A stretch of 64,000 nt of DNA from Plasmodiophora brassicae (Eukaryota; Endomyxa; Phytomyxea; Plasmodiophorida; Plasmodiophoridae), in the NCBI GenBank assembly GCA_039704465.1, contig JASFAU010000002.1, positions 1,426,001-1,490,000 of the forward strand, read 5' to 3'. The position numbers and the translations under genes were made by a program. Positions 35,901 to 62,520 of the stretch are shown piece after piece (position 1 is the stretch's first letter; each line of letters begins with the position of its first letter). The notes below the pieces were generated by a model. The model had not been told where the DNA came from and ran no database searches. It saw only the letters and a list, made by a program, of their open reading frames with translations.

Positions 35901-35985
35901 TGCTCGATGTACGGTTTCTCGGTCGTCTCTTTTCTACGCGTGTTAGCGTCGCGGGCGCGGGACCGACGTTGACCGCGCGCGGGCG

Positions 35986-36572
35986 ATGCAGGGCGCGCCG
36001 TGCTTCTCGGCTTTCGATCTGACGTCAGGCTGCTGGCAGGTCCCCGTGGCGGAGGCCGACCAGTACAAGTCGGCGTTCGTGACGCGCGACGGCCTCTTCG
36101 AGTGGAATCGAATGCCGTTTGGGTTGAAATGCGCCCCTGCGACGTTCTGCAGGCTTATGGGCAAGGTCATCGCCGGGATGTCGTTCGTGGACTGCCTCGT
36201 CTACATGGACGACGTTGTAGACCGGACCGCCCAACTAGGCCACGAGAGCAGCTGCTCCTCTTTCCTCAGGACAGCAGGACCCCCTCCTCAGGACAGCAGC
36301 ATCTTGAGGTCGGGCACGAGACGCTAAATATAGAGCCCCGCTCTACAACGTGCCCGTCTTCTCCCAGACGTTGGACCAGCACTTTAACCGGATCACCAGG
36401 GTGTTTGAGTGCCTACGCGAGCATGGACTGACCGTCAGCCCGAGGAAGACGTACCTTCTCCAGCGCGCGGTCACCTACCTGGGTCACCGCATAAGCGAAG
36501 AGGGGCTGGAGCCCGACGCGCGGCTCGTTAGAGCGGTGGTGGAGTTCCCGGAGTCGACGAACAAGGCGCAGA
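35986..36572 (+). pseudogene. Gypsy element B: reverse transcriptase, split by a 132-bp insertion
   Basis: First part 35986-36215: FSAFDLTSGCWQVPVAEADQ, then FEWNRMPFGLKCAPATFCRL and the catalytic LVYMDDV. Second part 36348-36572: VFSQTLDQHFNRITRVFECL, LTVSPRKTYLLQRAVTYLGH. The frame resumes correctly once the insertion and one ACGT copy are removed. Gag, protease and the first RT block are missing to the left, where repeat R abuts. This is the oldest element of the nest; its later parts reappear at 42632, 43712, 58128, 60415 and 61336. Confidence 0.85.
36216..36347 (-). mobile_element. 132-bp LTR-like insertion in element B RT (ACGT duplication)
   Basis: Bounded by TGTAGACC...CTCTACA and flanked by ACGT at 36212-36215 and 36348-36351. 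Read on the minus strand it begins TGTAGAGCGGGGCTCTATAT with a TATA-like motif, resembling the LTR of element C, and it ends with GGCGGTCCGGTCTACA, the sequence that forms the palindromic ends of the element at 59225-60414. It is probably a solo LTR of a family related to both. It interrupts the RT exactly after YMDD. Confidence 0.75.
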
Positions 36573-36576
36573 CAAG

Positions 36577-36792
36577 TGTAGTCCGGGGTCCTATATTTAG
36601 CTCCTCATCACCTACGTCAGCATCAGCATCCTCCAGATATTCACATGCGCCAGAGATTCATGTGTCGAGATATGCGGGGATCGAGAGCACGCGATCACGT
36701 GCGCCGCTGATGGGAGAGCGGGGTACGGGATCGATGGTGGATAAACGGCATTCGTCTATTGTGTCACCCGAGGCTTGACGGAAGACACTATA
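36577..36792 (+). repeat. Element A 5' LTR
   Basis: Begins TGTAGTCCGGGGTCCTATAT and ends GAAGACACTATA. The CTATATTTAG motif 15 bp in may be the promoter TATA box. It is identical to the 3' copy at 42416-42631. Confidence 0.9.
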
Positions 36793-36849
36793 GTGGCCAC
36801 TACGTGTCGTACGTTGACTCTCCGTGAACGACACCGACGACGACACGAC

Positions 36850-37749
36850 ATGGAGCTGACAAGCAGCAGCAGCAGCGGCGGCTCGACAAGCGCTACCATC
36901 GTTACGAACGCCGATGCGAGCATCCTGCCCAAGGCTAACAACCTTGACTCGACATCGATCCTGACGCTGCGCGAGGCGTACAACCGCTACGTCGCCATCT
37001 TCGAGGATCGGGAGGCGCAGCAGCCGCGGGGGCGTCGACTTCGTCCGCAAGGCATCCGGCTGTGCTTCACCGCCGTGCAGTTGAAGGCCATTGCCGAAAA
37101 TCACCTGGACCTGGACGACGGCGCCGAGGCGTTGACTGACGAATTGCTGGACGGATGGATCCGAGACCAGGTCAACGCATTGCCCACCAGCCACGGGCTG
37201 CGTATTCAGGACATCGAGTCCAAGATCGCGGATGAGCTTTCGATGGATACCTCGATGTCGACCCTGCGAGATCAAATCGCGTCAATCCCGGACCAGCTGA
37301 CGGCCATCCAGGACCGCCACGGTTGGAAGCTGAGCGAGACCGCCGGAGGACGCAAGGCCATGGGGCGCCTGATCGCTGACTCGCTCCAGCCCGGCTACCT
37401 CCGCGGTCACGTCCAGGCCTGGATCAAGGAGGACAAGGCCGAACGTGAAGGCAATACCAGGGCGATCGTTCGCGAGGCGCAGGATTGGGCGAGGCACTTC
37501 GTCGCGATCGGACGCGCCCGCAACGCATCGATCAAGCGTCCTCGGAAGACGTGCTCCGAAGTGCGACTCGCCGACAAGCAGAGCAAGCTGACTCCCGCAG
37601 CGACAACTTCAGGTGGACGCCGCGTACCAGCCCATCGCCCTGTGCCTGCCAACCGGCAATCGGGCCCACATCCAGCGACCGTGAACGCTCCCAAGCGCAA
37701 CCGCGAACCGACGGCGACAAGACAGCAGCCAGATGACGGGGACGACTGA
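36850..37749 (+). CDS. Element A Gag
   Basis: 299 residues from the ATG at 36850. Collinear with the Gag of element C: ILPKANNLDSTSILTLREAY and ALTDELLDGWIRDQVNALPT parallel blocks at the same positions in C. A basic Pro-rich tail precedes the zinc knuckle, which lies in the next frame (CWHCSGPHKMSMC from about 37768). In element C Gag and protease form a single frame, so the frame change at 37733-37749 in A is more likely a mutation than a programmed shift. Confidence 0.75.
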   Translation: MELTSSSSSGGSTSATIVTNADASILPKANNLDSTSILTLREAYNRYVAIFEDREAQQPRGRRLRPQGIRLCFTAVQLKAIAENHLDLDDGAEALTDELLDGWIRDQVNALPTSHGLRIQDIESKIADELSMDTSMSTLRDQIASIPDQLTAIQDRHGWKLSETAGGRKAMGRLIADSLQPGYLRGHVQAWIKEDKAEREGNTRAIVREAQDWARHFVAIGRARNASIKRPRKTCSEVRLADKQSKLTPAATTSGGRRVPAHRPVPANRQSGPHPATVNAPKRNREPTATRQQPDDGDD

Positions 37750-40700
37750 TGGCAAGCGCGACTTCAAATGCTGGCACTGCTCTGGGCCACATAAGATGTC
37801 GATGTGCCCAGAGAAGCCGACGAGGGAAAGGCGCAATGAGCTCGCACGTCATCATCGGCCCGCAGGCGGACATCATCCCGATGGACGTCGACCGATTAAA
37901 GTCGCCAAAACTCGCGCCTACACTGGGATCCAGCACGTGACACAGCAAGTAGAGATCGAGGGAAGGCGTATCCCTTATGTTCTAGACTCTGGCTGTGATG
38001 GGGGAAACCTCATACCTGAACACGTTGCGAATGAGTTGAAGGGCGCCACGTTCGAGGTTATCGAGCCCCGAGAAATCGCATCAGCCGACGACCAAGTCAT
38101 TGCCGTCAGCACCCGCATCGTCACCGTTCCAGTGACGAAACTCGAATCCAAAGCTGGGAATCTCACCCTGTACCATGTTGCCTACTATGTCTGCGACGCT
38201 ATTCCAGTCATCTTATTCGGCGACACACTACTCTCTATGATCGGCATCAGTCCACGTCAGCAACTCGAGGACATGATCGCATCCGGCACCACCGAGTTTG
38301 ATGCCAGACTATCTGGATGCGCCATGTTCGATGTGGAGTCGTTCGACGCCGTCAGTGAAATCGTTGCAAGGATGGCGACGTTGAGCGGCGACACGTATCA
38401 GGCGCCACATGTACACGATGCGGCGGAACCTACCTCCAGTGATGTCGACTTAGGGCCGATCAACGTTCAAGAGATTGAGGCATCCCTCACCCGCCTGATA
38501 CATCAAGCACGCCTCAACGGCATGTCTCGTCAAGGGGTTGCACGGCTACGACTCATCCTTCGACGACACGTCAACGAATTCCGCACACAGCTTGGTCAGG
38601 ACGGTCCTGTCAACATCGAACCTATGATCACCAAGCTTCAACCGGACGCCACGCCGTACCGATGCAGACCGCGCTCCTACAACCCGAAGCAAAAGGAGTT
38701 CCTCGACGAGATGATCAAGATGCTGTTGGAAAACAATCTGATCTACCTCAACATGAACTCCAGATGGGCGAGTCCCGTTCTTGTGGTCAAGAAACCGAAC
38801 GGCAAGGGGTACCGCCTGTGCGTCGATCTGCGCCAGGTGAACTCGCGTACGGTACCAACTGCTTGGCCGATGCCCAACATCGAGGCGGCTACTCGGAAGC
38901 TGGCTGGCATGACCTGCTTCTTCACGATCGATGCCCACAAGGGGTTCTGGCTCATGCCAATTGCGAAGGAATGCCAGGAGATCTTCTCGTTTATGACCGA
39001 CGACGGCGTCTACACACCTACCAGGAGCATTCAGGGCGCGACCAACTCTGCCTTGCAGTTCCAGGCGCGGATCGGGAAGATCTTCGACGACATGAAGGAT
39101 CACCTCTTGATATGGATCGACGACCTGCTGGGATTCGCCAAAACGGAAGACATTCTACTGCATCAGCTTGCACGTGTCTTGGAGCGAGCGCGCGAACGCA
39201 ACTTGAAGTTCAACCCGGACAAATGCGTCCTATTCGCTCGAGAGCTGAAGTGGTGTGGGCGCATCTACTCTCGTGATGGAATCCGACACGATCCCGAACG
39301 AATCGAGGCGCTGACCAGCATGCCGCGTCCTAACACTTTCAAAGAGCTACAGCAGTTCATCTGGGCGGCCAACTGGATGCGTACCAGTGTTCCCGGTTAC
39401 GCGTACATCATCGCCCCGCTCCAGGAGCTCACGGACAAGGCGAACGAGGAGATGAAGAGAATCCAGTCTTCGTCACCTTCGTCGATTCGGTTACATGATC
39501 TTGGATGGACAGACCGGCACAGCAAGGCCTTCGAGGACATACGCTTTGCGCTGATCCAGCACGTCCAGCCCGCGTACCCGAAGTCTGATCACCAGACATG
39601 CTTGTTCACGGACGCCAGTGACCTAGCATGGGCTGCGGTCATTACCCAGATTCCGAGGGAGGATATCGACCTACCAGTTCATGAACAACGACACGAACCA
39701 CTTGCTTTCTACGGCAAGCGGTTCTCTGGCGCTGAGTTGCGATGGTCAACACCGGAGAAGGAGGCAGCCGCCATCATCAAGGCGACTGAACGTGGTGACT
39801 TCCTTCTGCAGACGTCGCGTGAATTCCTCATGTTCTGCGACCACCGGAACCTCACGTTCATCTTCGCGAAGGACGCTGAGATGAAGAAGCACACCGCTCA
39901 GAAAATCGAGCGCTGGGCGCTACATCTCCAAGGGTTTGATTACCGTACCAAGGAGATCTCCGGCACTGCCAACGTCTGGGCCGACCTGTTATCTCGATGG
40001 GGCGCAGGACGAATCGCACTGGCGTGCCGGGCAACGCGCATCTTGCAGATGGACGATCTTCGCGTAACGCCGATGACGCATCCCGATTTCCAATGGCCGA
40101 CTGAGACCGAAATTCGCGAATCGCAAAGGCTATTGTCGCGTGAAGAGAAAATCGAGGACGGCGTGTTCTTCGATGATGACGCTCGTTTGTGGAAGTCGAA
40201 AACGAACGCCGTTCTGATCCCGATTCACAACGACTGCACCAGCTTGCGCCTACGCATCATGATCATTGGTCATTGTGCCAGTGCTGCTCATCGCGCGTAC
40301 GACGTTACCAAGGAGGCAATCACAACGCGATTCGCTTGGCCGGGCATGGACAAAGACATTCAGCAGATGTGCCAGCAGTGTCTTCATTGCATCACGACGC
40401 GGGGAGGAGCGAAGGTTCCGCGTCCGCTTGGAGAGGCGTTGCATGGCCACATTCCATTCGAGGTCCTGCACATGGATTACTTGTACGTCGAACCAGTTCG
40501 AGGAACCGATCATTCTTACAAGTACATCCTCGTGATGAAGGACGACTTCAGTGGTCTCGTCCGATTGATTCCATGCGCCGATGCGACCAGCCGAGTTGCG
40601 GCAGAGGCACTATTCCAATGGATTGCCGACTTCAAAACACCACAATATCTTGTCACCGATGGCGGATCTCACTTTACCGCCGAACTCATCAAGGAGCTGA

Positions 40701-41652
40701 CCAGGCTGCGAGACGTCGAGCATCATATAACGTTGGCGTACTGTCCATGGGCAAACGGGACTGTTGAACGCGCCAATCGCACTATCGTTGGCATCCTACG
40801 AAGCGTTCTGAGTGAGGGGCAGATCAGCACGCACAGCTGGCCCTACCTCTGCCCATTGGTGCAACACGCCATCAACCATTCGCCGAGCACACGCCTCGGA
40901 GGTTTCGCGCCGTTCACGGTCGTCACCAAGTTGAAACCCGAGCACCCTCTGGACAGCATCTGGGATCCGGCATGCAATCAGCTGCGGCCGATCTCTCCGG
41001 GATGGGTGGCGACGTACCTGTCAGCACTGCAGACCGTTATGGACGAACTCCATAGGTCGTCGATGAAGCCAGGGAGGCGAGGCACGCGTCCAATGTACGG
41101 CAACGCTCGCGACACGTGAGGAAGGCCCAATGCGAGTCGTTCATCCCGGGCGACTACGTCTTGAACGCGAAGCCCGTCCCCGGACCCGCACAGAAGTTGA
41201 TTGCGCAGTGGCGCGGCCCCTACCGAGTTGTTCAACGCGTCAATGACCAGGTCTACGAACTCGAAGACCTGTTGACTGCACGGCGCTTCCAAGCACACAC
41301 GCAACGCATCCGCCGCTATGCGGACGCCGATCTCAACATCACCACCGAAATCAAGCAGCACCTTGAGCGGCTTGACCAGCAGTTCCACGTTGACGACCTT
41401 CTCGATTGTCGTCTCGATCGCGAAACTCAGGAGTTGCAGATCAAAGTCGCTTGGTCCGGCTTCGACCCATCTGAGGCTACTTGGGAGCCTGCAGCACTTA
41501 TCGCCGAAGATGTACCACAGCTTGTGGAACAACTTATTCGGAAATTGGGCGACACTCATGCACACGTCGATGCATTGAGGCAATTGATTCCGGCGCCGAA
41601 ACGCTCTCGCACTCGGAATGCAACATCGCATCGAAAGAAGCGACGATCTTAA
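37733..41652 (+). pseudogene. Element A Pol (protease-RT-RNase H-integrase-chromodomain), one frameshift
   Basis: Frame 37733-41119 holds the CCHC knuckle, protease YVLDSGCDGGNLI, the RT core, RNase H (FTDASDLAWAAVITQI), the integrase HHCC zinc region (GHCASAAHRAYD to CQQCLHC) and the integrase core (VTDGGSHFTAELIKE, CPWANGTVERANRTI). A loss of one base near 41055 shifts the frame; the remainder continues in another frame to 41652 with ESFIPGDYVLNAKPVPGPAQ and a chromodomain-like end (VDDLLDCRLDRETQELQIKV, then WSGFDPSEATWEP). The RT catalytic motif is WIDD in LIWIDDLLGFAK (about 39110-39140), with Trp in place of the usual Tyr or Phe of Y/FxDD; element C has the same residues. Confidence 0.85.
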
Positions 41653-41776
41653 CCTGTACCATCACTTTGAATTAATCTCGATACCGTATCTGTTCGCGGG
41701 TGGACGATACGATGATGATCATGATCATGGATTGGTCTCTCATGACAATCCAACCTGGTTGACGGCAACGTAACCA

Positions 41777-41935
41777 TGGTTCGACTTGGCTGGTTGCTTT
41801 GGGCACCACGGTCGGTTTGACTTGGCTGGTTGCTCGGTGCACCACGGTCAAAGTTCGGTTCGACTTGGCTGGTTGCCCACGGGACCACGGTCGATTTGAC
41901 CTGGCTGGTTGCCATGTGCACCACGGTCAATGTTG
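41777..41935 (+). repeat. Tandem repeats in element A 3' untranslated region
   Basis: About four imperfect units, each with GACTTGGCTGGTTGC followed by a CACCACGGTC-type block. They sit between the Pol stop and the 3' LTR. A and C share the adjacent sequence (GTCCGTAAATGGATTTTCCA at 42250 and reverse complemented near 44490), showing that they are related families. Confidence 0.7.
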
Positions 41936-42415
41936 TTCGATGGACTACGTGCTGTCCATCTCGCGAGGCATTCGGCAGCATCTATTAAGTTCCTCTTCAC
42001 CGCAGGATTGACTCTGTCAGGGAGTACTGATGTCGAGGCTCCTGTTGCGCTGGGGGTCCACCCATGGGGGTCGGCCGCTGAGCTAGGTGAATGACACTTT
42101 CTAGATGTATATGGACCGGGCTCCACCCATGGGGGTCGAGCGCACCATTGCTGATGTCGTCGTTTGCTACTTTGCATTCTATCAAGGTACCCGAGGTTCT
42201 TTGATACGCTAAATCGTGTATGCATAGGTGGAAGACGGTCTCGAAGAGGGTGTCCGTAAATGGATTTTCCACCGATTTGTCCCATGGGGTTACAAGGTGG
42301 TTTTTAGTGAGTAGTGGGTGTTCTGCACTCGAGTCTCACACTACCCTACGTCTTCGTCCGTCATTCTCCTCTCGACTGCTCCTCTGACTCCGGTTCTGAG
42401 TTCGGGAAAAGGCAG

Positions 42416-42631
42416 TGTAGTCCGGGGTCCTATATTTAGCTCCTCATCACCTACGTCAGCATCAGCATCCTCCAGATATTCACATGCGCCAGAGATTCAT
42501 GTGTCGAGATATGCGGGGATCGAGAGCACGCGATCACGTGCGCCGCTGATGGGAGAGCGGGGTACGGGATCGATGGTGGATAAACGGCATTCGTCTATTG
42601 TGTCACCCGAGGCTTGACGGAAGACACTATA
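42416..42631 (+). repeat. Element A 3' LTR
   Basis: Identical to 36577-36792. Followed by the CAAG duplication and then by element B coding sequence. Confidence 0.9.
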
Positions 42632-42736
42632 CAAGTGCGTTCTTGGGGCTCGCGGGGTACTACTCCCATCTGATTCGCCGGTTCGCGGAGATCTCGGCTC
42701 CGCTCAGAGACCTCATCGTCCGCCCGACTCCCATGC
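42632..42736 (+). pseudogene. Element B, RT/RNase H connection
   Basis: Encodes AFLGLAGYYSHLIRRFAEIS and APLRDLIVRPTP, the segment that normally follows the gypsy RT. It directly continues 36572 when element A is removed, and is cut again by the copia fragment at about 42737. Confidence 0.85.
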
Positions 42737-43711
42737 CGTATTTCTCTCCCAACACAAATATGTCGCTGACATACTCCACAAATATGGTATGGCACACTCG
42801 ACCCCAGTCCCTACGCCAGTCAACCCGGACGTCAAATTAACCAGCGACATCGCACCACGCAGCGCACCAGACCAGCAACTGGCTACGCGGGAAAATCAAC
42901 GCATCAACTTCCGCGCTGCCGTTGGGCACGTCACATGGCTCACACACACACGCCCGGATATTGCGTATGCTGTCAGCGAAGTGTCCCGCTATGTCAGTAA
43001 CCCCGGCCCCCAACACTTCGTTGCTCTCAAACGGATCCTGCGCTACCTCAACGGCACTCGTGACTACGGCCTACTCTACCATCGTACACCAAATCAAACC
43101 GACACTGTCCTCCAGGCGTACTCCGACTCTGACTGGGCTGGAGACCTTGACACTCGACATTCCACCAGCGGCTACATTGTCTTCCTGAACGGCTGCCCCA
43201 TCTCGTATAAGACACAAAAGCAACGTTCGACAGCCCTGTCGTCCTGTGAAGCGGAAACGGTGGCATCCTCCCAAGCAGCGGCAGAGACAGTCTGGCTACG
43301 GTCTGTCCTCGGCGAAATTGGTTTTCCACAAACCCATCCGACGGACCTCTTCGTTGACAACCAAGGTGCTATTGCCTTCGCCAACAACGCTGTGAACCAC
43401 AGTAAGATGAAACACATCGACATCCGACACCATTACGTCCGGGACCAAGTGGCTGACGGCCAATTGCGAATCTCGTATGTGCCCTCCAGTGATAACCTCG
43501 CGGACATCTTCACCAAAGCCCTGGGAAAGATCAAGTTCGAGGAGCTCCGAGAGAGAATCGGCTGCGTCAGACGACCATGTCCGGTCGAGGGGGGGAGTCA
43601 AGACACGCACCCTCAAGCCCTGGAACCTGGCAACACCCTCAAGTAGGATGCGGCCTCTGGTAACAGTCAGACACGTCCACTACCCCTCACGGGGAAATAC
43701 ACTTACTTAGT
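42737..43711 (+). pseudogene. Truncated Ty1/copia element (RNase H and 3' end)
   Basis: Frame to 43646 begins in the end of copia RT (HKYVADILHKYGMAHSTPVP) and covers the full copia RNase H: RAAVGHVTWLTHTRPDIAYA, LRYLNGTRDYGLLYH, YSDSDWAGDLDTRHSTSGYI, STALSSCEAETVASSQAAAE and VDNQGAIAFANNAVNHSKMK, ending DNLADIFTKAL. A GGGGGAG purine-rich run at about 43588-43595 resembles the polypurine tract before a 3' LTR, of which only a short part could remain. Gag, integrase and most of RT are absent. It interrupts element B; duplicated target bases were not clear. Confidence 0.85.
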
Positions 43712-44125
43712 TATTATGTGCCTTCAGACGCCCCGGGGCGGTGGGGGTCCGAGGCGTTCGTCCAGCTGAAGCAGCGTCGATCTGTCGGAAGGGCAATTCT
43801 GGCACATCCCGACTTCTCGTGTCCGTTCATCCTGCAGACGGATCGGAGCAAGTTGGCGTTCGGGGCCATTCTGTGTCAGCGCGATGATGAGGGTCACGAA
43901 CGTCCGATCGGCGATCGCCTACATGTCCCGCAAGTGCCGGGGCGTAGAACGGCCTCTCGGCGAGGGGAAGCCATGTCGATCAAGCACGCGCTCCCACGTC
44001 GGAAGTGGCGATGCTTCGGAAGGAGATCACTTCGTGCTTGAGACCGACCACCGCCCATTGGAATTCCTACGCAAGGAACAGGATGCCGCGCAGCTCTGAA
44101 GAGTTTGGGAGGCGCTGGAGCGTAC
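43712..44125 (+). pseudogene. Element B RNase H
   Basis: WGSEAFVQLKQRRSV, ILAHPDFSCPFILQTDRSK, AFGAILCQRDDEGHERPI, and, after a frame change near 43910, FVLETDHRPLEFLRKEQDAA. These are the gypsy RNase H landmarks in order. The frame is broken internally, in keeping with an old copy. It ends at ...GCGTAC just before the GACT duplication of element C. Confidence 0.8.
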
Positions 44126-44129
44126 GACT

Positions 44130-44343
44130 TGTAGTCCCGTGTCTGCAGACTCTTGACGGCACGTAATGACACAGAAACAGAATGACGTTTATCGATCGCA
44201 TCGTCACGACGACGGCAGCCTCGCCACGTCATCGTGCTAAATCGGGGCACGCAGTTTGTCTAAATATAGTCCAGGACCGTCAGGTCAGGTGGCAGCACGT
44301 TGATGTAGGGAACGAGACGCTATAAATAGAGCCCCGCTCTACA
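44130..44343 (-). repeat. Element C LTR (left; 3' LTR in its own orientation)
   Basis: On the minus strand it begins TGTAGAGCGGGGCTCTATTT with a TATTTATAG box near its 5' end, and finishes CGGGACTACA. It matches the right LTR except G/A at the GCAC[G/A]CAG position. Confidence 0.9.
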
Positions 44344-45058
44344 GTGCCTTTCTCCAAACTCGTGACCGGAATCATCGTGAGCACGTAGTACGTAGATGGT
44401 GAAGTTGACCGAAGGTAGTGTGAGACTCGGAATCACCCAATACTCACTAAAAACCACCTTGTAACCCCATGGGAAAAATCGGTGGAAAATCCATTTACGG
44501 ACACCCTTGCCACCAAACACCATCGGTGCAACGAAGACATCAGCGATGGTGCGCTCGACCCACATAGGTGGAGCCCGGTCCATATACATCTGAAAAGTAT
44601 CATTCACCTAACTCAGCGGCCGACCCACATAGGTGGACCCCCAGCGCAACAGAGTCTCGATAGCCAGTACGCCCTGACCAGAGTCAACTGCGGTGAAGAG
44701 GAACTTAACAGACGCTGCCGACTGCCTCGTGATCGTAACGTATCAATGAGGTCACCGTCATGACCCATCGAGGAACGTATTGGCCTCTCATAGGAGTGCC
44801 ATAAACCATAGTTGCATGACGTCCATGACAACCAGGTTAACTGGCCCCATGACGTCCATGAAAATCAGTGAAGCGGGTCCCAACGTTTTGAGTACCCGGT
44901 CCTCAGCTATAGAAGACCATGATCCAGATCATCTTCGTAACGTTCACCATGAACCGATACGGTGGCGTCGTCCGTGATTAGGTCCCGACGCAACGTATGA
45001 AGCGTATACGATTGTTGATTCCTACGAACCCAACAACCGTAAATCATTGCACCCATAC

Positions 45059-46240: not shown

Positions 46241-46383
46241 TGTCACGACTGAGTCGTGTTGGCGACTCAGCCGGCACCAAAATGGGCTCCTTCGTAGCGC
46301 AATAGGTACAATAAACGTCCACGGCGCGGACCGACCTCAGTCGGTCAATCCGTGTGGTTGACTCATCGTGTTCGGTCGTCACA
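46241..46383 (+). repeat. Solo LTR of the element D family (TAATC duplication)
   Basis: Starts TGTCACGACTGAG and ends GTCGTCACA, like element D's LTR but visibly diverged. It is flanked by TAATC at 46236-46240 and 46384-46388. It interrupts element C's integrase between VLTMDY and LYVEPVRG, and removing it with one duplication restores the frame. Confidence 0.9.
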
Positions 46384-47887: not shown

Positions 47888-48033
47888 TGTCACGGTCGAG
47901 TCGCTGTCTTGGCGACTCAGCCGGCACCTAATTGGGCTCCTCCGCAGCGCACTACTACAATAAACGTCCACGGCGTTGGACCGACCTCAGTCGGTCAATC
48001 CGTGTGGTTGACACATCTTGCTCTGTCGTCACA
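47888..48033 (+). repeat. Element D 5' LTR
   Basis: TGTCACGGTCGAG...GTCGTCACA, with an internal AATAAA at 47961-47966 as a possible polyadenylation signal. Differs from the 3' LTR by A/C in CGCACT[A/C]CTACA. Confidence 0.92.
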
Positions 48034-48061
48034 TTTTGACCGACTACCCTTCGGTCGTACG

Positions 48062-48186
48062 CGTATCGTCTCGTCTCGTCTCGGCCCGTATCGACTATCG
48101 TCTCGTCTCGTCTCGGCCCGTATCGACAATCGTCTCGTCTCGTCTCGGCCCGTATCGACTATCGTCTCGTCTCGTCTCGGCCCTGT
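48062..48186 (+). repeat. 32-bp tandem repeat, about four units, in element D leader
   Basis: Each unit contains CGTCTCGTCTCGTCTCGG followed by CCCGTATCGAC. It lies between the 5' LTR and the Gag start at 48199, so it forms the untranslated leader of the element. Confidence 0.85.
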
Positions 48187-48198
48187 ATCATCGCAGCT

Positions 48199-49295: not shown

Positions 49296-49339
49296 ACGGG
49301 TTCCCCAGTCGCCCAGTAAACATTTCTTTTGGTTCCGAA

Positions 49340-52300: not shown

Positions 52301-53523
52301 GCCCAAGATGTCCTCGTTCATCAAGGGTTACGTGGCGACCTGTGACACGTGTCGCCGCGTCAAACCTCCTCGCCATCGACCATCCGGCCTGCTACTTCCG
52401 CTACCAATTCCAACCGCTCTCTGGTCCTCCATCTCAATGGACTTTATCGTCAAGCTCCCCTCCTCCCGTGGCTATGACTCTGTACTGGTCGTGGTCGACC
52501 GTTATTCGAAGATGGCCCACTTTGTGGCGTGTCGAGAATCCATTTCCGCGGATCAGCTGGCCGATCTGTTTCTTCAGAACGTGTTCCGTCTGCATGGCCT
52601 GCCCGACGACATTGTTTCGGATCGCGGACCCCAGTTCGTATCGTTGTTCTGGAAGCACCTCCTATGCCGTCTCGGCGTTGAACGCCATCTGTCATCATCC
52701 CGCCATCCCGAATCTGATGGCCAGACCGAGCGCGTCAACCAGATATTAGAGCAATACCTTCGCTGCTATGTGTGCTACCTGCAAGACGACTGGGAGCCAT
52801 TATTGCCGCTGGCCGAATTCTCTTACAATAACGTCGACCATTCGTCCACTGGAATGTCTCCCTTCTTCGCGAACTACGGCTACCACCCTCAGCTACGCGA
52901 CCCTCGTCCTTGCAAACACGGTAGCTCCAATCCCTCTGCCGATGAACGCGTGGAGAACTTGACGGCCATTCGCCGTTACCTACACCGCCAACTGCATCGT
53001 GCTGTCAGCACCATGAAACGAGCTGCGGATCGGAAACGCCGACCTCATCCCCGACTTCAAGATCGGGGAGTTGGTCATGCTCCGTCGAGGGGCAATTGCG
53101 ACTGGCCGGCCATGCGGTAAGCTGGATGTCCAAATGCTCGGGCCTTTCGAAGTTAGTCGCATCGTTAATCCGGTCGCCTACGAACTCCTGCTCCCGGCAT
53201 CCTTCCGCATCCACAACGTCTTCCACGCATCCCAACTGGAACCGTACGTCCCGAACGTGATACCCCATCGTGTGCAGCCTCCGCCACCCCCGATTCTGCT
53301 CGACGACGACGACCAACCGCTGTTCATCGTGAAGGAGGTCCTGGACTCTCGATATCGTGCTGGTAAGCTGCAGTATTATATCGACTGGGAAGGCTACCCT
53401 GCATCCGAGCGCACCTGGGAACCCGCCTCCAACTTGCAGGGCACCGGCGGATTCGATCGCCTGCTCGCGGCATTCCACGCTCGGTACCCAGACAAGCCCG
53501 GACCCCGTCTTCGACGCCCGTAA
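49340..53523 (+). pseudogene. Element D Pol with chromodomain, several frameshifts
   Basis: Protease about 49430-49700 (LALLDCGATSNFID, with Cys after the catalytic Asp), an acidic linker, RT 50570-51210 ([40 protein letters not shown], catalytic [12 protein letters not shown]), RNase H 51520-51900 (VETDASDFAIAMVLSQ), integrase 52230-52920 (HFGVRKTLQLVKREFWWPKM, CDTCRRVK, MDFIVKLPSSRGYDSVLVVV, SDRGPQFVSLFWKHL, HPESDGQTERVNQ) and a C-terminal chromodomain to 53523 (FIVKEVLDSRYRAGKLQYYI, DWEGYPASERTWEPASNL). Frame changes lie near 49875, 51213, 52020 and 53050. The domain set is that of a chromovirus-type Ty3/gypsy element. Confidence 0.85.
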
Positions 53524-53536
53524 AAGGGGACTATTA

Positions 53537-53682
53537 TGTCACGGTCGAGTCGCTGTCTTGGCGACTCAGCCGGCACCTAATTGGGCTCCTCCGCAGCGCA
53601 CTCCTACAATAAACGTCCACGGCGTTGGACCGACCTCAGTCGGTCAATCCGTGTGGTTGACACATCTTGCTCTGTCGTCACA
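53537..53682 (+). repeat. Element D 3' LTR
   Basis: 146 bp, matches 47888-48033 except one base. Followed by the TTCTT duplication and then by element C RT sequence on the minus strand. Confidence 0.92.
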
Positions 53683-53683
53683 T

Positions 53684-54483
53684 TCTTGGCATTCCTTTGC
53701 CAAAGGCATTAGCCAGAAGCCTTTGAACGCGTCGATCGTGAAGAAGCATGTCATGCCAGCAAGCTTGCGTGTGACCGCCTCCACGTTAGGCATCGGCCAG
53801 GCGGTGGGGACACACCGCGCGTTGACCTGGCGTAGGTCGACACATAGATGGTAGCCGTCGCCCTTCGGTTTCTTTACGACTAAGACGGGACTTGCCCAAC
53901 GAGTGTTCATGTTCATGTAGATGAGACCGTTCTCCTTGAGCATTTTGACCATATCGTCAAGGAATTCCTTCTGCTTCGGGTTGTAGAACCGCGACTTGCA
54001 CCGGTAAGGCGTGACATCCGGCTTCAGCTGCGTTACCATCGGTTCGACATCGACAGGCCTATCTTGCCCCAGCCGCGTTCGGAATTCATTCAGGTGTCGT
54101 CGCAATATCAGACGTAGTCGACTAACTCCATGTCGGGACATTCCGTTGAGGCGTGCTTGATGCACCATTCGATTGCACGACGTTTCGATCTCGTGCACGT
54201 TGATTGGTCCCAGGTCGACTTCACTTGAAGATGGTTCAGCGGAGTCTGGTTCCTGAGGGGCTTGAAAGTAGTCACTTCCAAGCGTTGCCATTCTAGCAGC
54301 AATGCGCCGCACAGTCTCGATTGAATCGACGTCGACTGCCGCACATCCTGACAGCGTGTCCTTCTCGGTACATCCTGATGCGATGATGTTCTCCAGCTGC
54401 TTATGCGGGTTGATGCCAAGCGCAGATAAAAGATTGTCACCGAACAGGATCACTGGAATCGTGTCGCAGACGTAGTAGGTCAC
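53684..54483 (-). pseudogene. Element C protease end and RT N-terminal part
   Basis: YYVCDTIPVILFGDNLLSAL, EFLDDMVKMLKENGLIYMNM, RWASPVLVVKKPKGDGYHLC, CVDLRQVNARCVPTAWPMPN and FFTIDAFKGFWLMPLAKECQ, the first RT blocks. It is cut at 53683 by element D and continues at 47887. It is one base out of frame with the Gag-protease frame ending at 54480; comparison with element A (NLTLYHVAYYVC) places the lost base near 54484-54495. Confidence 0.82.
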
Positions 54484-55796
54484 ATGGTACAGCTTAGGTT
54501 GCCAACCTCGGTCTCCAGAGTCGTGACTGGAACTTGTACCATTCTCGTGATCGTCCCGATGACCTTGCCCTCCGCGGAAGTGATGTCTCGTGGCTGGACG
54601 TCGCGAAATGTGGCATCATTCAACTGGTCAGCGATATGGCCAGGTATGATATTTCCACCACGACAGCCCGAATCCAGTTCGTAGGGAACGCGCATGCCTT
54701 CCAGCACTACCCGTTGCAAATCGTCCTCAGTCCCAGTGTACCCGTCAGTCTTCTGGACCTTTATTGGGCGAGTGGCGCGGACAAGCTCAATGCAGCGCTC
54801 CTTCGATGGTTTCGTTGGGCAGACTCGCAACCCGTGGTCGCCGCCGCAATTCCAGCAAGTGACCTTGCCGGCGTTCTTCTTCTCAGGGTCGTCGTCCCTC
54901 CGTCGCTTTGTCGCATTCCCGTTCGCTTGTGCTTCAGGATCTCGAGCCCCCACTTTCGTAGCGTTCGGCTGCGTGCTGAGAACCGTAGCGGGCTTCGGAC
55001 GGGTCGGTCGGTTCGAGGGTGGCGGGCGATGCTGCGCGACGCGTCGACCGCCAGCTGTCACCGTCACCTGGTATTTGTGACTCTTGTCACTAAGGCGTAG
55101 TTCGGCACAGGTCTTGTTCGACACTCCCGCGATCTGCGCGGAGCCTTGCACGAAGACCTTGTATCGGACCCATTCCAAGGCGTGCTTGATGATGCCCTTT
55201 AAGTCACCCTCCCGGTTGGTCTTATCGTCTTTCACCCATTGCCGCACATGGTCCCGTAATGGCCATGGCTGAAGTGTGTCCACCAACAATCGGCCAAGTG
55301 CTCGGCGTCCACCGGTCGTGTCTCGTAGGGGAAGCCATCCACGCTTCCACTGGATCTCCGTCATCCGATCCAAAATGGACTGCACTTGGTCCTTCAACGT
55401 GGGGAGGTTCACGTCCATCGACAGCTCCTTGGACATCTTGACTTCGATGTCCTGCGTCGTGAGCCCATGGCTGGCCGGAAGACTCTTGATCTGGCCGTCG
55501 ATCCACCCTTCGAGTTCCTCATCAGTCAGCACGTCGACGCTGCGAAGCAAAAGGTGGTTCAGTGCAATGGACGTCAGCTGTGGCGTCGTGAAGCAGAAGC
55601 GGATTGCTTGCGGCTTGATCCTAGCTTCCTCAGGTCGTTGTCCTTCGCGGTCAGTCACGACAGCACAGTAGCGATCATACCGCTCCTTCAACTTCAGGAT
55701 CGACGTAGAATCCAGCTTCGTCGCGTGCGGAAGAATGCTGAGGTTAGCCGAGCTCTTGAAACCGCCGACGTTCGCGCCTTGCGACTGAGATGCCAT
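54480..55796 (-). CDS. Element C Gag-protease
   Basis: 438 residues from the ATG at 55796 (MASQSQGANVGGFKSSANLS). Gag body (VLTDEELEGWIDGQIKSLPA), a Pro/Arg-rich linker, zinc knuckle CWNCGGDHGLRVC and protease YELDSGCRGGNIIPGH (catalytic DSG) are all in one frame. The frame ends prematurely at 54480 by a single-base loss relative to element A. The structure shows the family encodes Gag and protease as one polyprotein. Confidence 0.85.
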   Translation of the reverse strand: MASQSQGANVGGFKSSANLSILPHATKLDSTSILKLKERYDRYCAVVTDREGQRPEEARIKPQAIRFCFTTPQLTSIALNHLLLRSVDVLTDEELEGWIDGQIKSLPASHGLTTQDIEVKMSKELSMDVNLPTLKDQVQSILDRMTEIQWKRGWLPLRDTTGGRRALGRLLVDTLQPWPLRDHVRQWVKDDKTNREGDLKGIIKHALEWVRYKVFVQGSAQIAGVSNKTCAELRLSDKSHKYQVTVTAGGRRVAQHRPPPSNRPTRPKPATVLSTQPNATKVGARDPEAQANGNATKRRRDDDPEKKNAGKVTCWNCGGDHGLRVCPTKPSKERCIELVRATRPIKVQKTDGYTGTEDDLQRVVLEGMRVPYELDSGCRGGNIIPGHIADQLNDATFRDVQPRDITSAEGKVIGTITRMVQVPVTTLETEVGNLSCTM

Positions 55797-56029
55797 GACG
55801 TTGTAAACAGTTGCGACGCTCCGCCGCCCGTTAACGTGTAGCGTGTACGTGTGGTTGGACGTATACGTAGGGGTGGGACGTAGTGCGCACTGTAGTCCCG
55901 TGTCTGCAGACTCTTGACGGCACGTAATGACACAGAAACAGAATGACGTTTATCGATCGCATCGTCACGACGACGGCAGCCTCGCCACGTCATCGTGCTA
56001 AATCGGGGCACACAGTTTGTCTAAATATA

Positions 56030-58050
56030 CCGTAATTTCCGCCCTAGTAACCCCCCGGGCTGTTATCCCCTACCGCTGCACATTAATTGTCCGTAGCTCC
56101 ACGGAGTTCGGGTCCACATTGGACGGGACCCCGCCGCTCCACACGTCGATGTCGCGCGATGTGGAGATTGTCGGCCTTCGTAAGGCGAACAACGGGAGAT
56201 CCTGCAGTTGGCACCCTGACGGCTGCGGCGTATGCATCATCGTTGGATCACTAGTACGTTTCAAAATTGCGATCATTGAAAGTAGGTGATTATCGGGTCA
56301 TTCGCGTCACTGGGCTCATGTGAGGTTGTTCCAGCGGAAGGTGGCTTTGAAGAAGCTGTTGCTGTCGCAGTCATCCAGGACGGCTGTGAGCGTTGTCGAG
56401 TCGGATACCTTCCTCGGAGCTATAATAAGATACGTGGTCGATTCGTGGGCAGATTTGCCCAGGTTGTCGAGCTGTACGCTTCATCGGACAATTCTCACAA
56501 GCGACGCAAGGACGCGCGCAACTGTGGCATGGCATCGTGTATTCTCCTTGATGCGATTCCTTTACTGGAATAAAGCGACCACGTCCTCAACCCGTGATGC
56601 CCACATGGCGCCACGTGTTGAGGATCGTGTCCGTGCTGATCTGATCCCAGCTCTCATACGCCCACGTAGCCACGTCCTGACGCGTGGGCTCTGGCGAATG
56701 TCCTGCCGACTTGTCACGAAGCCGAGATGCCGGTTGCGCATGTAGTCCTTGAACGGCTTGTTGACGCCGACGTCCAGGACTTGGAGTTTTGACGTGTATC
56801 CGGCGACTACGACTTCGACCTGGGCAAAGAGAATCAGGCGCCTTCATAGACGTGCACATATTCCTCCGCCTTGCTTACTTCAGTACCGAAATCTGCAAGC
56901 TTGTCGACGACACTTGCCTCGAGGTGCGCCGAGAAGCTGTCCAACATCAGGTACGAATACGTAGCCTTGCGCTGCTGAAGCCACGGCCGCCATACGCGCT
57001 CGATCCACTCTTTCATGACATCAGTGTCGACCCAGGCATTGTCTTGCACCGTCATGATGACGCCTGATGGGAACCCGCGACGCACACACTCCCCCGTGAC
57101 CTCTCGATGAACACGACCATCGCGCTTGCCGCGAAACACCATGAACACCGGAAGTTTCTCGCCGGACAGTGTAACCCCCAGCAATGCGGTGGCACGCATG
57201 CAGGAACCGTTCCCAGCGATTGACACTGTCCGTTGCCCACGCCGTGCCAGCGTGTACAACATCGGCATGTCAAACGGCAGGTCCGTCTCGTCAATGTTCA
57301 CAACGAATTCAGGCGTTAGCATCATCATTCGAATGTGAGCATTGACGGCGTGAACGAAGTCCCGCATGACTTCGGCCGAGTGTCGCGTATTCTGTGCGAC
57401 GTGGGTCTTGCGTCGCGTGACCAGGTTTTCGCGGAGCACGAACCGGTAAATTCGCTTCCGAAGAGCCCAATCGTTGCCTTCGCAAAAGCTGGGCTGGAAC
57501 CTGTACAAACATGTCATACGTTTTCGTTGAACACTCGAACACCATCGACAAACCGTCGGCACACATGAAACAGCATGGTGGCCGTGACAGGGAGCGACTT
57601 CTCCCGCAACTCCTCGAAGTGCTTCATCAGGTGAGCATACACATCTGCACCTTCCACACAGTGACGGATTGACGAAGCCGGGCGGTAGACCTTCGCTCCG
57701 CGGTAGACGTCCTCTTTGTCCAGCAACTTCCGCCACCGCTTGATTTGACGGTAATCGACGCCGTACTTCTGGCTGGTTCGGTATACCTTGCCAGGTTCCT
57801 CGTACGCCTCAATGGCGATGGCGATCTTCTCGCCGAGGGTGAACCGGACGACACCACGGCCCATCAGCGACCTCGACAATAGGAAATGCGGATACCGTTG
57901 GACTCCTCTCGACGCGCGCTTTCGTTTGGCGCCATTTTCCTGCTCTCGTTGTCCCCCTAGGGTGAAAAGTCCCGCCCAAATATCCCCACCCAGCCAGTTG
58001 CAAATGTCCGTAGAGCACATTGGCGGGGGTTATTAGGGCGGAAATTACGG
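56030..58050 (-). mobile_element. Pogo-like (Tc1/mariner superfamily) DNA transposon
   Basis: Terminal inverted repeats of about 26 bp, CCGTAATTTCCGCCCTA then [G/A]TAACCCCC, at 56030-56056 and 58024-58050 with one mismatch; TA duplication at 56028-56029 and 58051-58052. It encodes a transposase on the minus strand. The insertion is younger than element C, whose LTR it splits. Confidence 0.92.
56587..57864 (-). CDS. Pogo-like transposase (HTH plus DDE), possibly frameshifted
   Basis: ATG at 57864. N-terminal helix-turn-helix region (FTLGEKIAIAIEAYEEPGKV, KYGVDYRQIKRWRKLL). A short intron near 57475-57518 (GTATGA donor) leads to FCEGNDWALRKRIYRFVLRE and the DDE_1 core: FVVNIDETDLPFDM (first Asp), YLMLDSFSAHLEASVVDKLA (second Asp) and, after a 59-nt GTAAGC...CAG intron, SKLQVLDVGVNKPFKDYMRN (third Asp). 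The end TRQDVATWAYESWDQIST, then ILNTWRHVGI, is typical for pogo/Jerky-type proteins but lies in a different frame, so a one-base indel near 56700 or another intron must be assumed. The three catalytic Asp are present. Confidence 0.75.
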
Positions 58051-58127
58051 TAGTCCAGGACCGTCAGGTCAGGTGGCAGCACGTTGATGTAGGGAACGAG
58101 ACGCTATAAATAGAGCCCCGCTCTACA

Positions 58128-59220
58128 GACTACACTCTGGGGTACAAGCCGGGAACTTCAATGACGAACGTGGACGCGTCGAGCCGCGTCGAGTATCGAC
58201 ACCACTCGGGCGAGGCCGTCGTCGATCCGGCACTCGTCGAGTCGGAGTCGGATGCGAGCGATATGGAGGCGGATCTGGACGACGATGATGACCTGGCGGA
58301 CGTTGCGGAGGCGTTCGGTGTTCGAGCTGTCAACGTGACTGGCATCAGCGATTCTTGCGGGTGATGCCTCGTCCGATATGGTTGGCCTGAAAGACATGCA
58401 CGACCTGGATGGCACCGACGAGAAGGATGAGGACGACCCGGTGGGCGGCCGGACGTCAGTTCAGTTCAGTTCAGTTCAGTTCAGTTTATGTGTGCTTCGC
58501 GCTTTTCACGCAGGCGCCTCGTTCTCGGGTCCGAGGACCGAAGGGTCAACCAGCAGAACGCCAGCGTCACCCGGCCTGGCAGTGCCGGCCCATCACCTCT
58601 GTGCTATGTTCATCGCGTCTGGACGATATCGGGACGGGACTTGACTCGCTCGGAATTGCCGACTGCACTCTTTGTCGATCTACTTCACCATACCGCCTAT
58701 GTCGGGATGCCGACATACCCTTGTCTTGCGGGCCGTTCCTCTACCTCCCCAGTCGCTCAATCGAGATCCTTATTGCTCTGGCACTTTCGGCTGCCTGATC
58801 AGTAGATCACCCCTTCAACACTCGCAGCTGTTGGGTACCGGACATTTTTTGGAGTTGTTCGTGCCTCGAACTGGGGACCTTGTCCCACGACTGCTGCTGA
58901 CCAACCAGGTCACTGGGGCAGCCCCCCTGCCCGGACGTCATTGGCCTACGGGAACGGCAACGTGCGTATCCGATCTTGGGACGCGTGATCGAGGAGAAGG
59001 AACGGAACGAACCACTGAAGAGTCGATTGGCTGCGACGACGATCTTGAACGAGGAAGGCGTCCTGATGAAAGTGCGGTCACCTCGTCGAGCTGCGGATGG
59101 CGAACGGCAAGTTCTGTCTGTGCCAGAGACTGACCGTGGCAAGCAGCTGAAGAGAGCGCCTGACGATCCAGTCGCGGGGCACTTCGGCAAGGCAAGAACA
59201 ATCCAGAACCTGCAGCAGGC
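58128..59220 (+). pseudogene. Element B, RNase H/integrase linker and integrase zinc region start
   Basis: DYTLGYKPGTSMTNVDASSR follows the RNase H in gypsy Pol. An acidic stretch (SESDASDMEADLDDDDDLAD) comes next. From about 58965 the frame PILGRVIEEKERNEPLKSRL, GRQ...KRAPDDPVAGHFGKARTIQN runs into the integrase HHCC region (His pair). In between, 58381-58960 carries no recognisable coding sequence and includes a TTCAG repeat. It is cut at 59220 by the palindromic-end element. Confidence 0.75.
58456..58481. repeat. (TTCAG)5 pentanucleotide repeat
   Basis: Five perfect units inside the decayed linker of element B. Confidence 0.9.
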
Positions 59221-59470
59221 GGCGTGTAGACAGGACCGCCCCAACTAGGCCACGGGAGCAGCTGCTCTCGTGGCCTAGTTGGGCGGTCCGGTCTACAAAA
59301 CATCTCACCGGGGAAGCTCAAGCGCCCCGACGATCGAGCGATGTCCGCCGCCTACCTGTGTAGACGACTCGCAGACCTGCTCTCGTGCCTGGCGCGTCCG
59401 TACTATCTACACATCCTCCCATGGCTCTGTCATAACTCCGTGGCCAGATTTTATGACGTCATGACGTCAT

Positions 59471-59570
59471 AAAGGCGTCATAAGGCGTCATAAGGCGTCA
59501 TAAGGCGTCATAAGGCGTCATAAGGCGTCATAAGGCGTCATAAGGCGTCATAAGGCGTCATAAGGCGTCA
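59471..59570. repeat. Ten tandem copies of a 10-bp unit
   Basis: One AAAGGCGTCA followed by nine perfect TAAGGCGTCA units. It adjoins the 22-bp palindrome 59451-59472 made of two TGACGTCA sites, so the unit looks like an amplified half-site (GCGTCA/TGACGTCA). Confidence 0.95.
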
Positions 59571-59799
59571 TAACCACAAAACATATGGCAAGAAGACATG
59601 TTGCTGTATTCTTGATAAATCAGGTAGCAGATCATTCGCCGTCTCCCTCGCTGTCCGAATTGGGTATATCATCAACAGCACCTGTTTCGTCCACGTGCCA
59701 GTCTGGAACAGGCGCGCACGATGGGTCTACTGCAGCCAGTAGAGACTGCAACTCCATGATCAGCTCGAACTGCAACAGGTATCTTGGACACGAAGTCGG

Positions 59800-60132
59800 T
59801 CATTCGTGTCTGAGAAGAGGGTAACGATATTTCCGCGAACCCAGGACAGTACCGGAGGGAGCCGGAGAACCAACCGGACGCTCGGAATCAGCCGCGCGTG
59901 CAAGAAACCCATTGCCTGGGAGGAATCGATCGTTCAGGTGGGGGCACACGTTCAAGTGCGACCTCATTCGGGTTGTCGTTGCGGTCACATCACCCCCGCA
60001 ATGGTTGCAAACACAACGATCGCCGCCGTCGGCTCCATCATCGTCCCTGGCCTGATAGGGCGCTGTGAAGTGCTGTCTTAACGCGGCAATGTCGCTTGCG
60101 GTCGCTCTGGAGCGCTTCGCCGGCCTTGGCAT
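59800..60132 (-). CDS. BED-type zinc-finger fragment inside the palindromic-end element
   Basis: ATG at 60132; 110 residues. The basic N-terminus (MPRPAKRSRATASDIAALRQ) is followed by CVCNHCGGDVTATTTRMRSH, giving the C-x2-C...H-x4-C BED pattern completed by LNVC. BED fingers form the DNA-binding N-terminus of hAT transposases, including the DUF659 type seen at 1-1918. No hAT core follows, so this is either a truncated transposase or a stand-alone DNA-binding protein of the element. Confidence 0.6.
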   Translation of the reverse strand: MPRPAKRSRATASDIAALRQHFTAPYQARDDDGADGGDRCVCNHCGGDVTATTTRMRSHLNVCPHLNDRFLPGNGFLARAADSERPVGSPAPSGTVLGSRKYRYPLLRHE

Positions 60133-60414
60133 CTCGATTCTGGTGCTGCACGAATGGGGGGACAGTGCGCAATGCGCAGATTTCGGAGGCCGTGCACCAC
60201 TGTGTATGACGCCCTATGACGGGGGCTCTCCGGGATGACGTCATAATATGACGTCATACTTATGACAGTGCCGTGCATCCTCCCCAAAACTCTTCGTCTC
60301 TGCGGACTGCGAGGAGGCTCGAACTCCCGTCGGTGAGATGTTTTGTAGACCGGACCGCCCAACTAGGCCCGAGAGAAGCTGCTCCCGTGGCCTAGTTGAG
60401 CGGTCCGGTCTACA

Positions 60415-61000
60415 GGCGTTCTGGCCGGGCATGATCCGGGACGCGCGTCGATGCGTCAAACGTTGCCGAACATGCCAGCAGGCCAAGTCTCGGGTAGGTG
60501 GTACCGTCGGAGCAAGGGCTGCGACAGGAGTTCGCCGACGACAACGCCCCGTTCCTGCCCTGGCATTCAGTGCACGTTGACCACGTTGTGTACCTCCCCA
60601 AAACGTCGCGAGGGAACGAGCACGTCCTGACACATGTCGGATATGCCACGCGACATTGTTCCTGCCTGTGCGGCGGTACACGGCTGTGGAAACGGCGGAG
60701 ACCCTAATCCGGCACGTGTTCCTCCAGAAGGGGTTCCCGTTGAAGGTGGCGGCGGACCGTAGTCGGTCGTGGCGCAACGACCTGTTCGAAGTCTGCAAGG
60801 CGTTCGGGTTCCGGTTGGCGATGACGTTGGCGTAACGCATGTGAGCAAACGGGATGGCCGAGCGTCCGCATCGATACTTGAAAGCGTTTCTACGGACAAT
60901 GAGCGAAGAGGATCGAGGGCGGTGGATCTGCAATTAGAGTATCTGACCATCGCTTACTGCAAGGGCGTCTGCGAAACGGCCAAAGAGACGCCCCATCACC
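60415..61000 (+). pseudogene. Element B integrase core, decayed
   Basis: FWPGMIRDARRCVKRCRTCQ completes the HHCC finger (C-x2-C in RCRTC with preceding His pair at 59195-59215). HSVHVDHVVYLPKTSRGNEH, then a stretch with several frame changes (AETLIRHVFLQKGFPLKVAA, DRSRSW) and ANGMAERPHRYLKAFLRTMS, the segment with the catalytic Glu. Two stop codons precede ANGM. Interrupted at 61000 by the MITE. Confidence 0.75.
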
Positions 61001-61002
61001 TA

Positions 61003-61335
61003 CCGTATTTAACACTGCGCTGTGCCCCCCCATGTACAAGAAAAGTGCGTGATGGGTTCACCGCCATGTAAAGTTTTTGACCGTTTTTGCTGCGGTTTTT
61101 TGGTTCCGCCGCTGACTCCCGATACCCCGACCCGGGGCGGTACATTCAAGCCACTAGCTGTCGTGACGTATGCGGTCGGATCGGCACCACGCATTCCAGC
61201 TGCGACCTCGCAAATATTTGGGCCTTAAGTGGACATCAGACTGGTTCTCGCAGTCGGTGCTCGCAAAATTTCGATACTCAATTCTTTGGGAGGGGGGCAC
61301 AGGTCACTGGGGGCACAGCGCAGTGTTAATTACGG
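61003..61335. mobile_element. 333-bp MITE with about 27-bp terminal inverted repeats and TA duplication
   Basis: Ends CCGTATTTAACACTGCGCTG... and its reverse complement (one mismatch in the first ten bases), both finishing in a C/G run; flanked by TA at 61001-61002 and 61336-61337. Removing it rejoins element B (ETAKETPHHL to EFGRDAR). The first eight bases CCGTA[T/A]TT match the pogo element's CCGTAATT, so the pogo transposase family may mobilise it. No coding capacity. Confidence 0.88.
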
Positions 61336-61856
61336 TAGAGTTCGGCCGAGATGCGAGGTCCGCTGGAGTACGACGTTCGACTGCCGGACAAGCGGATCGA
61401 TCGGTATCGCGCGTACCTGCGCGCGGGCCCTTCAACGACGGTTACGTTCCGCATGGGAAATCGCCGAGCGCATGGCCAAGGAGGCGTACAGCAAGCGGGT
61501 TGTGAGGCAGAACGTCAACCGCTTCTCCCCGAATCCCGAAGTCGGCCAACTGTTCTGGGCCGATCGTGCGTCGAAAGTGTCAGTGGGTATGAAGGCGGAC
61601 GGACGCGGTTCCGCTCGCCGCTGACCGGGCCCTGGCGAGTACTGTATCAGCTGCCGAATACGGTCGGCACGTATCGTCTTCAGCAACTGCACGCGCAGGA
61701 AGAGGCCTCGTTCAACTGCGACCAGACGTTGCCTGTGCTCGACGGCGACGACGACAGCAGGGCTGCGGAGGGTGACGTCGATGCTGTCGGAGACGAGGTG
61801 GAGCTCGAGGGGGGACAGCGATTCAGAGGTGGACCCGGAGTTCGCTGTCCTGGATA
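61336..61856 (+). pseudogene. Element B integrase C-terminal region
   Basis: FGRDARGPLEYDVRLPDKRI, then, after frame changes, AWEIAERMAKEAYSKRVVRQ, VGQLFWADRASKVSVGM and RSPLTGPWRVLYQLPNTVGT, YRLQQLHAQEE: the post-core gypsy segment with the GPxxV motif. The acidic end DGDDDSRAAEGDVDAVGDEV is probably the Pol tail. No 3' LTR was identified. Confidence 0.7.
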
Positions 61857-62049
61857 AACTGGTGCCGTCTGATGCCGATATCAGCGACGGGGAAGAATCC
61901 CACCTTCGGCCCTGGGCAACGCGCGCCTACGCATAGCATTCGATCGCAGAGGGGGTGTAGCGGGCAGCCGTAGTGGGTGCGCGCTTTCATAGGTGGGAAG
62001 CAGCCGCAAAGACGCAGGTGCGCGCTTTCATGGTCGTGACGCCCCAAAG

Positions 62050-62280: not shown

Positions 62281-62520
62281 GCCTTGCCCAAGTACAGTTA
62301 GGGCAGCGTTCAACCAGCCGCTTTCCTTGTTCGTGCCGGTTAGTCATTATATCGTCAATTCCGTTGTCGTTTAGTCCTCTGACGTCGTGTTCCGTTTCCT
62401 TTACGTCGTGTCAGGGCAGGTAGGCGATTCGAGTTCGTTGCCGCGGAGTCCAACAATGATCGCAAAGCTTCCGCCTGAAGGTGGTCACCTCCCAGTCGAT
62501 CATACAAATCTCGAACCTGT

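Follow-up and report, generated by a model that had tools for sequence, protein, structure and literature searches.

A transposon nest of Plasmodiophora brassicae lies at the edge of a retrotransposon-rich block that is most likely a regional centromere

Introduction

Regional centromeres rich in transposons are described in the oomycete Phytophthora sojae, where they span 211-356 kb, carry the Copia element CoLT and were identified by chromatin immunoprecipitation (ChIP) of CENP-A (PMC7082073). In Verticillium dahliae, VdLTRE9, a single repeat of the long terminal repeat (LTR) type, marks one region per chromosome, with 95% of its copies (PMC7482064). For Plasmodiophora brassicae, the e3 genome paper of 2019 mentions centromeric candidates of differing lengths on all nuclear contigs; the text consulted names neither a transposable element (TE) family nor a CENH3 gene or marker repeat for them, and lists no coordinates (PMC6823432). 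Apart from that sentence, a limited literature search found no description of centromeres in Rhizaria. Here, we analyzed a stretch of 64,000 nucleotides of P. brassicae (C2:1426001-1490000, hereafter the window; C1, C2 and so on denote contigs), in which an initial annotation had described a nest of transposons founded on an interrupted gypsy element, B. It was compared with the whole genome (25.34 Mb in 21 contigs, of which 20 are nuclear), and the 50 kb past its end were also examined. The nest forms the left portion of a retrotransposon-rich block, which is most likely the regional centromere of C2.

Marked Zones on the Nuclear Contigs

Two repeats, a Copia family (with a member at C2:1496541) and an element with 196-bp terminal repeats (T196), together mark 20 of the 20 nuclear contigs, each contig carrying one or both of them, with one block per chromosome. 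Marker zones were drawn as the two markers ± 30 kb, leaving out outlier copies, and cover 6.2% of the genome. The DNA searches scored only part of the candidates (40 of 107 for Copia, 40 of 51 for T196), and pattern searches were therefore added for both repeats. The Copia family has at least 42 matches on 17 contigs, and all 42 listed ones are in marker zones. Among these listed matches, 32 show 98-100% identity and 10 show 78-85%. A 26-mer from this family gave 38 matches on 17 contigs (control: 0), 37 of which fall in a single window of at most 110 kb per contig, compared to a mean of 21.7 and a maximum of 29 in the null distribution (5000 trials); this TE family is thus concentrated in the blocks. 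T196 has at least 79 matches at 22 loci on 17 contigs, and its 25-mer has 52 matches on 16 contigs (reversed control: 0). The two markers also lie close to each other: on all 13 contigs that carry both, they are at most 11 kb apart, whereas circular shifts gave co-location within 25 kb on 0.87 contigs on average and on five at most (5000 trials).

A third line of evidence comes from reverse transcriptase (RT) genes of the gypsy type. In total, 150 RVT_1 profile matches were scored out of 203 candidates, and 17 matches of one dispersed gypsy family were left out of the clustering. The best 100-kb counts of each contig sum to 85 of the remaining 133 matches, compared to a random mean of 47.8 and a maximum of 58 (2000 trials). 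Of the 22 T196 loci, 17 are inside zones drawn from RVT_1 only, which cover 7.9% of the genome (binomial, 3.4e-15). Conversely, the marker zones contain 72 of the 133 RVT_1 matches.

Three other candidate markers were tried and rejected: (i) gypsy RT clusters alone, which are significant (p < 0.05) on only 11 of the 20 contigs; (ii) the LTR families of the nest elements A and C (described below), only 6 of 11 and 3 of 9 of whose listed loci, respectively, are in zones; and (iii) the chromodomain, which was dropped because matches of equal score adjoin members of the dispersed gypsy family.

Among the kinetochore genes, a histone search gave 13 matches, including five full-length genes of the H3 type (two of which were read) and one split gene, C4:1368782-1369160. 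The peptide of the latter has a divergent N-terminus, a loop 1 three residues longer than that of H3, and a Trp instead of the Phe found in loop 1 of H3, which we take to be traits of CENH3. This gene therefore encodes a CENH3-like variant of histone H3. Two stretches of C18 match the Ndc80_HEC domain above the cut-off.

The Block on C2

The block to which the nest belongs spans about 66 kb (C2:1459.6-1525.9 kb). Counting on from the first position of the window, repeats related to those of other blocks reach about 99.9 kb and are followed by host genes, Rpp40 and FAP206, at 106.9-110.8 kb (by C2:1.533 Mb), from which the extent of the block was deduced. Two long frames at 99.97-104.45 kb, the second of which was scanned in part, match no Pfam family. 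The reading frames scanned inside the block, which are part of all its frames, encode TE domains or match nothing. Besides the nest, the block holds further Copia elements and T196. The nest is not placed at random: it makes up one edge of the only marked block of this type on C2.

T196 occurs on C2 both as a single copy (63305-64254) and as a tandem array of 5.3 copies with 740-bp units (C2:1514529-1518421, window-equivalent 88529-92421; 99% match). The array is flanked by a 5-bp duplication, TCCTT; no duplication was seen at the single copy. The short TG...CA LTRs, the length below 1 kb and the absence of a long reading frame (the longest encodes 155 aa) liken T196 to terminal-repeat retrotransposons in miniature (TRIMs), of which it is a candidate member. 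The tandem array and the lack of a duplication at the single copy distinguish it from TRIMs. We read T196 on C2 as a TRIM-like element that may be turning into a satellite.

Centromere or Passive Trap

Several observations weigh against a centromeric nature of these zones. Neither marker is universal: the DNA and 25-mer searches detected no T196 on C7, C11 and C13 (nor did the 25-mer match on C15), and no marker Copia was found on C10, C19 or C20. Stray copies exist, namely an additional T196 site with two matches on C9 (about 981 kb) and one outlier Copia match on C17 (309.5 kb). The zone of C9 (C9:1281-1308 kb) lies less than 10 kb from the end of the contig, which may therefore stop inside its repeat block. 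RVT_1 alone gives no significant cluster on C3, C5, C6, C7, C8, C9, C12, C14 and C17 (p 0.06-0.91), and its best window on C8, C9 and C17 is not the marker zone. The part of the C2 block formed by the nest is not AT-rich. Lastly, the last exon of the CENH3-like gene scored 86.5 bits against ordinary H3 and 85.3 against cnp1 in a PDB comparison; as this comparison does not decide, the gene owes its name to its loop 1 and its N-terminus.

These zones could be TE-rich heterochromatic or low-recombination islands that trap insertions passively, and not kinetochore sites. In many genomes, TE traps that contain nested insertions are commonplace, and the families of A and C are also found outside the zones (at 5 of 11 and 6 of 9 loci, respectively, among the matches listed and leaving out the copies of C2 itself). 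However, passive trapping should gather all families, and those that are dispersed therefore count against it: the marker zones contain only 2 of the 17 matches of the dispersed gypsy family and only 7 of the 45 RVT_2 matches that are not beside a marker Copia. An earlier form of the gypsy contrast (1 of 16 loci) was favored by leaving this family out before the zones were drawn; the value of 2 of 17 comes from its repetition with marker-drawn zones. Passive trapping would also have to explain one zone on each of 20 contigs and the co-location of both marker families wherever both are present, and we consider it unlikely. If, as we favor, the zones are centromeres, CENH3 chromatin would form on them, and insertions would be tolerated there, with no genes hit and low recombination. 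The Copia family, and perhaps also the chromodomain gypsies, may be steered to the chromatin of the zones. Nesting would then reflect successive insertions into the small zone where they are permitted, and not any property of B. The initial annotation had suggested that this dead element is itself a tolerated landing site. A preference for B would account for the at least seven insertions that it holds within about 2.7 kb of gypsy sequence; given the zones, we find this very improbable. Still less credible is the explanation of the nest junctions as assembly joins, since most junctions show exact duplications and empty sites that are collinear, which random joins are not expected to produce.

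Layers of the Nest

The analysis confirms the nest and adds layers to it (Table 1). The nested insertions reported by the initial annotation are borne out by duplications at exact element ends and by uninterrupted relatives of B. All eight duplications that it named (ACGT, CAAG, GACT, GGCG, TA, TTCTT, TAATC and TA) were found at the exact ends of elements. Two relatives, C14:949373-952060 and C17:277661-280342, carry no insert: the eight consecutive blocks of B are collinear in both, with at most about 75 bases of the relative between neighboring blocks in the alignment. These small gaps reveal the empty sites without any reconstruction. In our judgement, several independent duplications of 4-9 bp at structurally defined ends, together with collinear relatives, are far beyond chance. 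The mechanism of the nest is ordinary, namely repeated insertion of LTR elements, elements with terminal inverted repeats (TIRs) and small elements.

Table 1. Elements of the nest and neighboring repeats (positions in the window).
Element	Position	Strand	Description	Duplication
Z	33601..35535; right remnant 62284-62546		outermost layer: old gypsy relic with N inserted	
N	34154..35161		TIR element of about 1 kb in Z; TIR CACTCATTGGCGTAATTA	TA
M	35536..62283		TIR element in Z, carries the B fragment	TTGCCCAAG
B	35982..61896 (by homology)	+	internal part of a gypsy element, from the middle of RT to beyond the integrase, no LTRs, eight aligned blocks; RVT_1 match	
LTR-like piece	36216..36347		132 bp, TG...CA	ACGT
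A	36577..42631	+	gypsy with chromodomain; identical LTRs 36577-36792/42416-42631	CAAG
Copia-like fragment	42714..43747 (approximate ends)	+	inferred label	
C	44130..58127	-	gypsy with chromodomain; LTRs 44130-44343 and 55891-56029 + 58051-58127	GACT
Solo LTR	46241..46383		in C; about 86% to the LTR of D	TAATC
D	47888..53682	+	gypsy with chromodomain, in C; 148-bp LTR pair	TTCTT
Pogo-like element	56030..58050	-	DDE_1; splits one LTR of C; TIR CCGTAATTTCCGCCCTA	TA
Repeat of about 440 bp	58463..58902		(TCAGT)n at one end	
F	59225..60414		palindromic TG...CA element, about 335 bp without G	GGCG
G	59421..60275		855-bp element in F; 97% copy C14:276404-277170	CATCCTCCC (9 bp)
MITE (miniature inverted-repeat TE)	61003..61335		TIR of about 30 bp; 96% copy C3:1789072-1789410	TA
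T196	63305..64000, past window end	+	TRIM-like; 196-bp TG...CA terminal repeats, about 950 bp; zone marker	

The position of D, the solo LTR and the pogo-like element inside C was supported by self-comparison as well as by duplications at exact ends. The palindromic element turned out to be two layers (F and G), and M, N, Z and the repeat of about 440 bp had been missed. The proposed relative clock holds insofar as nesting gives an order: M and N entered Z; B is inside M; A, C, F, the MITE and the pieces are in B; D, the solo LTR and the pogo-like element are in C, and G is in F. For one zone, part of the order of insertions can thus be read from the nest. LTR divergence adds nothing to this order. 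The LTR pairs of A, C and D are nearly identical (0 differences in 218 positions, 1 in 215 and 1 in 148, respectively, the pair of C being compared in two parts since one LTR is split by the pogo-like element), and these elements can therefore be ordered by nesting only.

The idea that B was the first, founding element did not survive, since B sits inside M and M inside the older relic Z. Overall, the initial interpretation is partly supported, for layered insertion and not for B as founder. The left remnant of Z is in the same order as C1:569106-570868 (88-94% identity), with a C1 gap of about 0.5 kb before the last 26-bp match, and the C1 copy has a chromodomain match. This copy provides the empty site of M: at C1:569.7-570.3 kb (93-94% identical) it has a single TTGCCCAAG and no insert, whereas M is flanked by two perfect copies of this 9-bp sequence (35527-35535 and 62284-62292). 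N has a copy at C20:285106-286121 that is 99.8% identical.

How B came to be inside M is a separate question. M combines TIRs (35 of the first 40 bases of its inverted ends match) with a duplication of about 9 bp, as Mutator-like elements do; no transposase was found in M, no search aimed at one having been made. If its internal sequence was captured, which is a candidate reading, M resembles Pack-MULEs. B would then have been taken up by M before M entered Z and would never have inserted here as a retrotransposon. B lacks the two LTRs and the target duplication of an inserted LTR retrotransposon, none being found at its ends, which abut M sequence. The lack of LTRs follows from its extent, since B corresponds only to positions 2874-5561 of the C14 stretch, whose two LTRs of 180 bp occupy 174-353 and 5656-5835. 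The perfect duplication and empty site of M, and the existence of an M-like copy without B (C5:124728-125105), also argue for capture. Against it, B could have inserted into M and later lost its ends, the C5 copy contains nothing that corresponds to the parts of M adjoining B (35749-35981 and 61897-62121), a flanking duplication of at least 7 bp was not found at that copy, and no copy of M carrying B alone was seen. We hold capture only tentatively, at somewhat less than even chances.

Other Inserts and Neighboring Sequences

A, C and D each have the LTR pair, the duplication of 4-5 bp and the RT-RNaseH-integrase order of gypsy elements. Identical or near-identical copies of the LTRs of A are present on several other contigs, and LTR copies of C are also found on other contigs. 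The TA duplication, TIRs and DDE transposase of the pogo-like element are those of the pogo/Tc1-mariner group.

For the fragment at 42714-43747, no clear duplication was found, and Pfam gave no family for 42789-43643. By eye, the peptide of 42618-43643 presumably reads as a Copia RT/RNase H. Copies with 94-97% identity are present at C1:931954-932924 and C20:76696-77292, the latter beside an RVT_2 match (C20:76140-76706). Taken together, the peptide and this neighboring match suggest that the fragment is Copia-like.

The ends of the piece at 36216-36347 are related to F and to the LTR of C, and copies of about 92 bp (97-99%) are found on C10, C14, C17 and C18. F has copies on C2, C3, C10, C13 and C18, and the C13 copy, which was read, is devoid of G; further copies of this kind are among the matches listed. 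These two small TG...CA elements have 4-bp duplications and ends common to each other or to the LTR of C, and they may be mobilized in trans by a gypsy integrase. The repeat of about 440 bp, for which no clear duplication was found, has 24 matches listed elsewhere (82-87% identity) on many contigs, inside and outside the zones; it is possibly similar to short interspersed nuclear elements (SINEs).

To the left of the block, the gene at 26716-29499 (minus strand) is 100% identical to a P. brassicae protein across 90% of the query. Amid the host genes of the same side, a 1.1-kb stretch is present twice (87%) in 21147-25259. Rfam and tRNA scans gave no matches.

Conclusions

P. sojae is the closest precedent, with one TE-rich block per chromosome as in P. 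brassicae, and the shares of Copia copies are similar: about 90% of CoLT copies are in centromeres, compared to 37 of 38 pattern matches here (PMC7082073). Its centromeres, known from ChIP, are larger than the C2 block of about 66 kb, which is known from sequence alone. P. brassicae also differs in that a second marker, T196, partly replaces Copia, and in belonging to Rhizaria and not to oomycetes. VdLTRE9 similarly marks one region per chromosome; it is degenerate and AT-rich, whereas most listed copies of the P. brassicae Copia are nearly identical and the nest is not AT-rich (PMC7482064).

Taken as a whole, these results lead us to think it somewhat more probable than otherwise that the regional centromeres of P. 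brassicae are compact, with one on each chromosome, and that they were built by a still-young and almost zone-only Copia family and by a TRIM-like element becoming a satellite on C2. As far as our literature search reaches, centromeres defined by retrotransposons would then be described for the first time in Rhizaria, and their nests would record centromere turnover through layered insertion. The clubroot parasite P. brassicae attacks crops and cannot be grown in culture on its own; the two marker repeats allow centromeres to be tested for at once, from sequence, in any of its strains. The finding also prompts one to ask how a Copia element locates this zone on almost every chromosome.

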